Assembly: GCA_030271625.1 (NCBI GenBank) | Contig: JARXKN010000001.1 | Coordinates: forward strand, 558,001 to 622,000 | DNA from: Patescibacteria group bacterium | Lineage (GTDB): Bacteria; Patescibacteriota; Saccharimonadia; Saccharimonadales; UBA4665 | DNA: 64,000 bases | Reading direction: 5' to 3' | Part shown: one piece after another, positions 31,708-34,232 of the stretch | Layout of the letters: each line of letters opens with the position of its first letter | How positions within the stretch are numbered: position 1 is the first letter of the stretch | Translations under genes and position numbers: made by a program | Notes under the pieces: model-generated | Databases searched by the model: none | What the model saw: the letters and a program-made list of their open reading frames with translations, nothing else | What the model was told of the DNA's origin: nothing

Positions 31708-33315
31708 ATGAGCCAAGACGCCCGCCTCGACGAAGAACAAGCAACTGCCCGCCGGGCCCGCGTTATTGGCATGAACTTTATTGACACCAGTCAGATTCAA
31801 AACAAAGTGCTTTACAAAGATATTCTGACTATCCCGGAGCTGCAACAGTCACGCATTATTCCATTGCAAGCCGATGAACATAACATTATGTTTGGTGTCA
31901 CCACCACCACGTCGCAGCAAACTATGACGGCCATTCGGACTAGATTCCAAGATCAGCGGATTGCTTTTGCAATTATCTCTGACACTGGCTACAGCGATTA
32001 TATGCGGCTGTATGATCCACCGGCTCAGGTCATCTATCAGGACATTAAGCTCAATCAAGCCGACAATGAGACGTTGGTGGAGCAGATTTCATCACTGCTG
32101 CAGCAGGTGCGAGCTGATGACATGCTGGCCTATCTGGTTGAACAAGCCCACCGCCTTAACGCTTCTGATATTCATATCGAAACCCAAACGAACGATGTAC
32201 GTATCCGGTTTCGGATTGACGGCGTGCTGCACCCCATAGCGACCCTCTTTTTAGATAAATACCGGGTATTGATTAGCGCCATAGCTAGCGCCGGCAATGT
32301 TTCAACTTCGGCCGACGAAGCCCAACAAGGTCACATTGCACAAAAGGCGACCATGGCCGATGGCACCCGGGTCGATGTTAACGTTCGCTTAGAGACGGTG
32401 CCAACCATAAATGGTATGGATGTGGTGATGCGACTGTTTAATATGAACGCCGATATGTACACGCTTGACCGGCTTGGCCTCAGCGGTAAGGAGCGGGCCA
32501 CGGTCGACGAGATTATCGCTAAGCCTAGTGGTTTAGTGATGATTGTTGGGCCGACTGGCTCCGGTAAAACGACCACGCTGTACTCGATGCTCAATACGCT
32601 CAATGTCGATACGCGAAAAATAATTACCATTGAAGACCCGGTCGAGTACCAGTTTCCCGGCATCACCCAGATCTCTATCTCTACCAAGCCAGGGGCCGAG
32701 CAAACTGATTTTGCCGAGAAACTGCGAGCGGTGCTACGATTAGATCCCGATGTCGTGATGGTGGGCGAGATTCGCGACATGGATACTGCCAAGACAGCTT
32801 TACAGTCCGCCTTAACCGGGCACTTAGTCTTGACTACCTTTCACGCCAGTTCCGCTGCCGCTGCTCTAACCAGGCTTGGTGACATCATTGGCCAAAACCC
32901 ACTCTTTGTCTCAGCCATCCGCCTAGTAATGGCGCAGCGCTTAATTCGCAAACTAGACGAATCGTTAAAGCAGGCCTACAGCCCGAGCGAGGCAGAATTA
33001 CAAACTATTAACGCCGTGCTGGATACGCTACCGCCCGACACGCCGCGTCCAAATCTCGATGGCCTCCAGCTCTTTAAACCGGGTAGCTCCCCTGAAAATC
33101 CCTATGGCTATACTGGTCAGATTGCCATTCGTGAACAATTCACCATGACAGACAAGTTACGAGCTTTATTGGAGAAACCAGAAACGGCCTTGTCAGCTCA
33201 GACTATCGAAGCTGCGGCCGCCGCCAGCGGTATGCATACCATGCTCCAAGATGGCATGCTGAAAGTAGTAAGTGGTGAAACTACCCTCGAGGAACTATTC
33301 CGTGTCGTCGGATAA
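31708..33315 (+). CDS. PilB/GspE-type secretion ATPase, cysteine-free
   Basis: This 535-residue ATPase of the type II secretion/type IV pilus family would power pilus assembly. It has an N-terminal MshEN-like region, then RLNASDIHIE, Walker A GPTGSGKTTT (from G281), the Asp box ITIEDPVEYQ, Walker B DPDVVMVGEIRD and the His box TTFHAS. The usual tetracysteine zinc motif after QRLIRKL is missing, and I find no cysteine at all in the protein. No pilC, pilD or pilin gene is adjacent, though CPR bacteria usually keep such genes elsewhere. It is divergent from the methyltransferase. Confidence 0.92.
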   Translation: MSQDARLDEEQATARRARVIGMNFIDTSQIQNKVLYKDILTIPELQQSRIIPLQADEHNIMFGVTTTTSQQTMTAIRTRFQDQRIAFAIISDTGYSDYMRLYDPPAQVIYQDIKLNQADNETLVEQISSLLQQVRADDMLAYLVEQAHRLNASDIHIETQTNDVRIRFRIDGVLHPIATLFLDKYRVLISAIASAGNVSTSADEAQQGHIAQKATMADGTRVDVNVRLETVPTINGMDVVMRLFNMNADMYTLDRLGLSGKERATVDEIIAKPSGLVMIVGPTGSGKTTTLYSMLNTLNVDTRKIITIEDPVEYQFPGITQISISTKPGAEQTDFAEKLRAVLRLDPDVVMVGEIRDMDTAKTALQSALTGHLVLTTFHASSAAAALTRLGDIIGQNPLFVSAIRLVMAQRLIRKLDESLKQAYSPSEAELQTINAVLDTLPPDTPRPNLDGLQLFKPGSSPENPYGYTGQIAIREQFTMTDKLRALLEKPETALSAQTIEAAAAASGMHTMLQDGMLKVVSGETTLEELFRVVG

Positions 33316-33317
33316 AA

Positions 33318-33326
33318 TGTTATAAT
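33318..33326 (+). promoter_or_regulatory. Extended -10 promoter (TGTTATAAT) of the WhiB-like gene, leaderless spacing
   Basis: TGT-TATAAT, a perfect hexamer, ends 7 nt before the ATG at 33334. It lies in the 18-nt gap after the PilB-like gene. No ribosome-binding site is present. Confidence 0.65.
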
Positions 33327-33333
33327 ACTGTTA

Positions 33334-33756
33334 ATGAGTCCAGAACATAATGCTTCATTTGCGATTACCCAACCACTTACTGAGTTGCGACTAGTCGAGT
33401 CACAACCCCCCAGGCTCCGGACCATCCTCTCGCCAGCTGAGCAAAGGCGGCAAGAAGCAACAGAAACCCGCAGTCTGATAGATGCCGAATTAGCCAGTAT
33501 CGAATTAGGTTCCAATGGGGAGCGCTGCGTCGGAAAAGACAGTTACTATTTTATTGAAGATGAAGACGACAAGCGCTTGCAGCTACGAAAAGAACAGGTG
33601 GCTAAAGCGATTTGCGCCGGCTGTCCGGTTGTAAACTCTTGCTTAGAGGAATCATTAGTTGATTACGAAATTCGGGGAACTTGGGGCGGAGTAACCGAGA
33701 GAGAACGGCAGCGCCTGATGCTTCACAGTTCTTCATTTAGTATAAATAGCAAATAA
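33334..33756 (+). CDS. WhiB-like (Wbl) iron-sulfur regulatory protein
   Basis: This 140-residue protein has the Wbl layout: C65, then C94-A-G-C97-P-V and C103 (C-x28-C-x2-C-x5-C) for a [4Fe-4S] cluster, followed by the beta-turn GTWGG (115-119) and TERERQRL. In Actinobacteria these proteins bind the sigma factor region 4 of RNA polymerase and respond to redox or NO; some act in stress or antibiotic response. The N-terminal 60 residues have no counterpart that I know. A short basic C-terminal DNA-binding tail (as in WhiB7) is not evident. It is expressed from its own leaderless promoter. Confidence 0.85.
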   Translation: MSPEHNASFAITQPLTELRLVESQPPRLRTILSPAEQRRQEATETRSLIDAELASIELGSNGERCVGKDSYYFIEDEDDKRLQLRKEQVAKAICAGCPVVNSCLEESLVDYEIRGTWGGVTERERQRLMLHSSSFSINSK

Positions 33757-33762
33757 AGGGGC

Positions 33763-33791
33763 TTGCAACAGATACGGCCATGTTGTATACT
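33763..33791 (+). promoter_or_regulatory. Promoter of rplS
   Basis: TTGCAA (33763-33768), 17-nt spacer, TATACT (33786-33791). The ATG at 33801 follows after 9 nt, so the mRNA is leaderless or nearly so. The ATG at 33780 lies inside the spacer and is rejected. Confidence 0.75.
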
Positions 33792-33800
33792 CGTTCAGAT

Positions 33801-34232
33801 ATGCAAAGTGTGATTCAAAAAATCGAAGCTAAATACTTAAAGCCAGCCGTCGTCGACGTCCGCAGTGGTGACACCGTTAAGGTACACCAGAAGATTCGCG
33901 AAGGTAACAAAGAGCGGGTTCAGATCTTTCAGGGTCTTGTAATTCGTACCGGCAACAAAGGCGGTCATATGAACCGTATTACGGTGCGCCGGATTGCTAG
34001 CGGCATTGGTGTCGAAAAGAGCTTCTTACTACACAGCCCGCTGGTTGTTCAGGTAGAAGTTACCAAGCGTTCTAAGGTCCGCCGTAACTACTTGACCTAC
34101 ATGCGAGCTCGAACTGGTAAAGCTGCTCGTTTAACTGGTCTCGACTTTGACCGTCGTGCCGTTAACACCCTGCCAGCTGTCGAAGCTGAAGTGGCCGCTG
34201 TTGACGCCGAAGTTGCTGAAGCTAGCACTTAA
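33801..34232 (+). CDS. rplS: 50S ribosomal protein bL19
   Basis: This 143-residue protein sits at the 30S-50S interface. It has the conserved DVRSGDTVKVHQKI, ERVQIFQGLVI and SFLLHSPLV-type segments and KVRRNYLTYMRARTGKAARL. The core is of usual length (about 115), with an Ala/Glu/Val-rich extension at the C-terminus. The start at 33801 gives the expected N-terminus (MQSVIQKIEAKYLKP) and agrees with the promoter. An intrinsic terminator follows at 34253. Confidence 0.96.
   Translation: MQSVIQKIEAKYLKPAVVDVRSGDTVKVHQKIREGNKERVQIFQGLVIRTGNKGGHMNRITVRRIASGIGVEKSFLLHSPLVVQVEVTKRSKVRRNYLTYMRARTGKAARLTGLDFDRRAVNTLPAVEAEVAAVDAEVAEAST

Follow-up and report, generated by a model that had tools for sequence, protein, structure and literature searches.

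A WhiB-like protein gene between pilB and rplS in a Saccharimonadia genome, and the presence of its family across the class

Introduction

The WhiB-like (Wbl) proteins are called exclusive to the Actinobacteria in the main review of the family (PMC6282962), and the abstract of a further paper likewise describes them as restricted to that group (PMC7363131). In M. tuberculosis, the binding of WhiB3 to the sigma factor is abolished by the substitution H516A in sigmaA or by F31A, F32A or W76A in WhiB3 itself, W76 being required for sigma binding (PMC10245118). Here we describe a Wbl gene in a member of the Saccharimonadia, carried on a stretch of 64,000 nucleotides that was analysed as a whole (the window), and place it among the Wbl genes of its class. 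In the literature that was searched, with most subscription journals outside the search, no report of WhiB genes in Saccharibacteria, Patescibacteria or TM7 was found. Public protein databases probably already contain such Wbl entries.

A Wbl protein encoded in the window

The gene (P0001; 33334..33756, + strand) encodes a protein of 140 aa. The initial annotation had assigned it to the Wbl family and proposed a search with the Pfam profile PF02467 (Whib), and the assignment held: hmmscan aligned profile positions 6-65 of 65 with a score of 56.5 bits (E 4.1e-15), against a cut-off of 23.6, and the profile search of the whole genome gave 57.7 bits. The lack of a profile match, which had been named beforehand as grounds for refuting the assignment, thus did not arise. 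Sequence matches in the PDB were exclusively to Wbl proteins, with WhiB3 at the top (E 2e-9), while no NCBIfam model matched either this protein or eight related Wbls. An AF2 model, calculated with the window protein and 47 other Wbls as input, had a mean pLDDT of 76, with values mostly of 75-89 in the domain. When this model was used for Foldseek, the best 14 matches were Wbl structures, in the order WhiB3, then WhiB and WhiB1, then WhiB7 and WhiB6, and the superposition on WhiB3 (8cyf_A) has an rmsd of 1.4 Å, with a TM-score of 0.83 relative to the target.

The residues that had first drawn attention to the protein, C65, C94, C97 and C103 together with the GTWGG and TERER motifs, are all present in the 140-aa reading frame. 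The first predicted Fe-S ligand is C65 (codon at 33526..33528, +), invariant in alignment A2, and ligands two to four are predicted in C94-X2-C97-X5-C103 (33613..33642, +), invariant in alignments A1 and A2, so that the cysteine spacing, C-X28-C-X2-C-X5-C, is intact. The GTWGG turn (residues 115-119; 33676..33690, +) contains W117, the counterpart of WhiB3 W76, and departs from the family pattern G[I/V]W[G/A]G through a Thr in place of Ile/Val at the second position, which is merely a preferred one; TERER occupies residues 121-125. Across the window protein and the 47 other Wbls of alignment A2, the four cysteines, G115, W117 and G118 are invariant. The Pfam and PDB matches and the fold seen with AF2 and Foldseek together establish family membership, and 33334-33756 thus encodes a genuine Wbl protein, in its family and, as predicted by the model, in its fold.

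The genome holds a second Wbl (L150:7199-7705, on G000:C15; 76 bits), surrounded by helicase, ResIII and methyltransferase-like genes, in which no ATG, GTG or TTG lies ahead of the first cysteine.

A variable gene in a fixed slot

The window forms part of a 640-kb contig from a genome of 1.15 Mb that is 98.5% complete. Upstream, the slot of the Wbl gene is bordered by a pilB/GspE-type ATPase gene (31708..33315, +; PF00437 T2SSE, 294.8 bits), and downstream by a promoter-like sequence of rplS, TTGCAA-N17-TATACT (33763..33791, +), with a matching sequence in the closest relative (G002), which lacks a Wbl here. The gene for ribosomal protein L19, rplS, follows (33801..34232, +; PF01245, 122.7 bits). 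Its start is probably 33801 rather than 33780, the longest reading frame beginning 21 bases too early, since the alignments with most homologues begin only at residues 5-9 of the longer frame and the -10 element of the promoter lies inside it. With a GC content of 48.0%, against 51.1% for pilB, 49.4% for rplS and 50.1% for the window, the Wbl gene resembles its neighbours in composition.

The order pilB-Wbl-rplS is found in four genomes from three genera: the window genome (G000), a member of the same genus (G001), and G018 and G020 from other genera. In seven further genomes (G002, G004, G007, G012, G014, G016 and G031) pilB and rplS adjoin without a Wbl, separated by a gap of 42-76 bp; G002, with a pilB 90% identical, is among these. 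As the flanking genes keep their order in relatives (pilB 70-90% identical, rplS 73-95%) with or without the Wbl, the latter is best described as a gene that is present or absent in a fixed slot. This slot was recognised through synteny and not through sequence: an ortholog search in 60 relatives with the full-length protein returned none by sequence, the matches being partial and over the domain alone. A tree in which the four slot Wbls form one clade gave an AU p of 0.168, and the slot may thus reflect either common descent or refilling.

These surroundings also bear on whether the gene belongs to the genome at all. Wbl being a classic actinobacterial marker, a contaminating or mis-binned actinobacterial contig comes to mind, an explanation that we find barely credible and have rejected for the window gene, because the contig extends over 640 kb and both the flanks, in the same order, and the slot are common to relatives. 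Wbl genes moreover occur in single-contig genomes of the class, including G008, G051, G106, G125 and G138.

The initial annotation had noted a strong -10 box ahead of the gene. This is borne out by a perfect extended -10 sequence, TGTTATAAT (33318..33326, +), which runs from 3 bases past the pilB stop to 7 nt ahead of the Wbl ATG, so that TATAAT begins at -13 relative to the start codon; the layout is in addition of the leaderless type, and no clear Shine-Dalgarno sequence precedes the ATG. The slot Wbls of G000, G001 and G018 all have TATAAT 6-7 nt ahead of the ATG. We therefore predict from this arrangement that the window Wbl is made from its own leaderless promoter. In a set of 300 reading frames taken from the window and the class loci, 73 boxes of the -10 type lie between -15 and -12 relative to the ATG, 39 of them at -12, compared to about 2 per position elsewhere. 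Given so sharp a peak, leaderless mRNAs seem to be frequent in the class.

Distribution and origin of Wbl genes in the class

Matches above the cut-off were obtained in 68 of the 195 Saccharimonadia genomes, representing 50 of 93 genera, with some of the positive genomes carrying two to four Wbls in tandem. When 333 genomes were sampled across the phylum, Wbl was present in 16 of the 32 members of the class and in none of the 301 others (Fisher p 8e-19), while among 14 control genomes only Corynebacterium glutamicum, the sole actinobacterium, had a match above the cut-off. Presence across this class does not agree with "Actinobacteria only" as a defining property of the family; it corrects the claim on distribution, and distribution is no criterion of homology. 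The window Wbl is a member of a known family with an unexpected, class-wide distribution.

Some arrangements in the class are more elaborate. Four diverged Wbl genes lie in tandem at L134:3141-4888 (G107), three Wbl matches are found near one another in G118, and a reading frame of 960 aa (L118:1088-3970, -) has an N-terminal Wbl domain and no further Pfam match.

The main tree holds 83 Wbl domains of the class and 53 of Actinobacteria, 136 in all. The two sets interleave within the WhiB2-, WhiB1-, WhiB4- and WhiB3-like parts of the tree, the subfamily names resting on matches to solved structures and on motifs. The same picture comes from a reduced tree, which forces at least 8 label changes, and a single clade of all Wbls of the class was rejected (AU p 9.4e-9). 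With a single origin rejected and the tree interleaved, the simplest reading of these sequences is that there were several transfers into the class. The initial annotation was right to see a Wbl outside the Actinobacteria, but in place of one stray acquisition there is a class-wide presence with several transfers. The direction of transfer is not given by the tree alone; Wbls are, however, diverse among Actinobacteria and patchily distributed in the class, and it is most likely that the class took its Wbl genes several times from Actinobacteria, the presumed hosts on whose surface these tiny bacteria would live. The actinobacterial origin proposed earlier fits the interleaved tree, although no donor is singled out that would identify a particular host. 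Wbls are also plentiful in actinophages, viral contigs and plasmids, and such copies could have served as vehicles of transfer.

Within the 136-domain tree, the window Wbl falls into a WhiB3-like, mostly actinobacterial set (support 98/95), but it is in none of the starred sets of the reduced tree and its branch is very long (1.89-2.25), so that this placement is not robust. Such a branch, the many Wbls on actinophages and viral contigs, and the slot without Wbl in the closest relative would all suit a domesticated fragment of a phage or other mobile element, in which a phage-borne Wbl was left in the slot and acts on host or phage promoters with no conserved role. We consider this improbable, as the slot and the promoter layout are shared with other genomes, neither the cluster ligands nor W117 have been lost, and the neighbours are housekeeping genes.

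Recurrent neighbourhoods are seen elsewhere in the class. In 11 loci (L006, L013, L026, L115, L116, L120, L123, L124, L126, L128 and L142) a Wbl gene immediately precedes polA, in the same orientation, and in several of them rpoD lies upstream at a distance of one or two genes. These Wbls belong to different subfamilies, as if the place before polA accepted one regulator after another; in the window genome it is held by a second sigma factor. A TrkA-type protein also recurs among the neighbours, as does a microbial rhodopsin in G099 and G139. In the latter two genomes, both from the family of the window genome, a tandem Wbl pair is found together with the rhodopsin gene and a small unnamed protein (L136:2059-4251 in G139 and L137:2873-4815 in G099).

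Sigma factors and a possible mode of action

The second sigma factor (P0002; G000:C6:83311-84327, equivalent to L188:4309-5328; - strand) lies directly upstream of polA and is of actinobacterial type. Its PDB matches were led by actinobacterial SigA (349 bits) and SigB (322 bits), with the best Firmicutes match at 299 bits, and its best NCBIfam models were PRK05901.1-3, PRK05901.1-1 and the SigB model PRK07921.1, all below their curated cut-offs. The tail of P0002, LRHPARS, retains the pair that is His516-Pro517 in M. tuberculosis sigmaA, as numbered backwards from the last of its 528 residues, whereas the native primary sigma factor (P0003), with Firmicutes-type SigA as its best match, ends in LRKHRDA and has Lys-His at this place. 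His-Pro is also present in solved Firmicutes SigA chains and is thus not peculiar to Actinobacteria; the native sigma factors of the class are without it. On the side of the Wbl, the residues that contact sigma are largely present in the window protein.

The initial annotation had suggested docking on the primary sigma factor and a search for the Wbl-binding residues of region 4. Docking as such is plausible, these residues being found in P0002, but the native primary sigma, with its Lys-His, does not have them. Among genomes with a Wbl in the slot, G018 has a second sigma with His-Pro and G020 has a second sigma, while none was found in G001; G005, which has no Wbl, has a second sigma without His-Pro. 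The pairing of slot Wbl and His-Pro sigma in G018 as opposed to G005 is suggestive only, and across the class a second sigma-like match and a Wbl do not go together (6/17 against a background of 35%).

The reading we favour, and hold to be probable, is that of a genuine, class III-like Wbl of host origin that occupies a slot, is expressed leaderless and acts as an Fe-S regulator docking on sigma region 4. By analogy with the described members of the family, the four cysteines would hold a [4Fe-4S] cluster, and with the cluster intact F73, I74 and W117 would dock on region 4 and thereby change the promoter choice of RNA polymerase; damage to the cluster by oxygen, NO or a change in redox state would end or alter the binding. 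The likeliest partner in the window genome would be the second, actinobacterial-type sigma, since it keeps the His-Pro docking site that is absent from the native primary sigma. In this capacity the window Wbl is probably a sensor of redox or NO.

Two alternatives touch on separate steps of this scheme. The first concerns the metal: SufB and SufD are absent from the window genome (the control search was positive in 14/14 genomes), which allows for zinc in place of [4Fe-4S]. We judge it unlikely that the protein binds Zn or acts as a disulfide/thiol switch, its four-cysteine set and fold matching [4Fe-4S] Wbls of solved structure. The second concerns the partner. A Wbl present by descent might act on the native primary sigma through an altered interface that accepts Lys-His for His-Pro, as would also be required of Wbls whose genes adjoin rpoD elsewhere in the class. 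Relatives with a Wbl beside rpoD have a sigma of the Lys-His type there, with a LRKHKDAKKLHEYL-type tail in L116, L120, L126, L128 and L142, and those Wbls must therefore bind differently; His-Pro is, in addition, missing from most second sigmas that were read in the class. On the other hand, H516 is essential for the binding of WhiB3 in M. tuberculosis (PMC10245118), and the native sigma has Lys. For the window Wbl we regard such an interface as a serious possibility, though short of the expected outcome.

Beyond the docking Fe-S regulator that we favour, the class could have imported a regulatory module of its hosts, with Wbl sensors and, in the window genome, a matching actinobacterial-type sigma that bears the Wbl docking site, and with these read redox or NO signals on the host. 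This proposal is tentative and on present evidence rather doubtful; if true, host-type machinery works side by side with a native sigma from which that site is absent. The occurrence of Wbl in half of the sampled genera of one class, and nowhere else in the phylum sample, would link the family with life as an epibiont. These genes make the passage of regulators from host to parasite open to testing and, with the native sigma altered at the key residue, offer a natural experiment on the Wbl-sigma interface.

Comparison with described Wbl proteins

In sequence and in predicted fold, the window Wbl is most like class III (WhiB3/WhiD), its best match in both respects being WhiB3 of M. tuberculosis (PDB 8cyf, 8cwr, 8cwt), to which it is 37% identical in the domain. 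WhiB3 F31 and W76 are retained as F73 and W117, while F32 is replaced by Ile (I74), and the first two cysteines are separated by 28 residues rather than 29. Other features set the two apart: WhiB3 has an invariant N-terminal Trp, whereas no Trp precedes C65 in the window protein, which has an N-terminal extension of 64 aa and few basic residues at the C-terminus. R38 and R42 of WhiB3 align with D79 and Q83, and although K80/R81 and R85/K86 lie nearby, conservation of the Arg-rich DNA-binding motif is not clear. Like the absence of SufB and SufD, the missing Trp, the indistinct Arg-rich motif and the scarcity of basic C-terminal residues speak against too simple an account of the mechanism.

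Class II (WhiB/WhiB2), as represented by S. venezuelae WhiB (PDB 8dy7), has the same fold but is far less similar to the window protein (33 bits); it holds many other Wbls of the Saccharimonadia, for example that of L036 (132.9 bits; starred clade). The Wbls of actinophages and plasmids, a possible vehicle, share the domain, whereas the window Wbl has pilB and rplS as its neighbours and no adjoining phage or plasmid genes.
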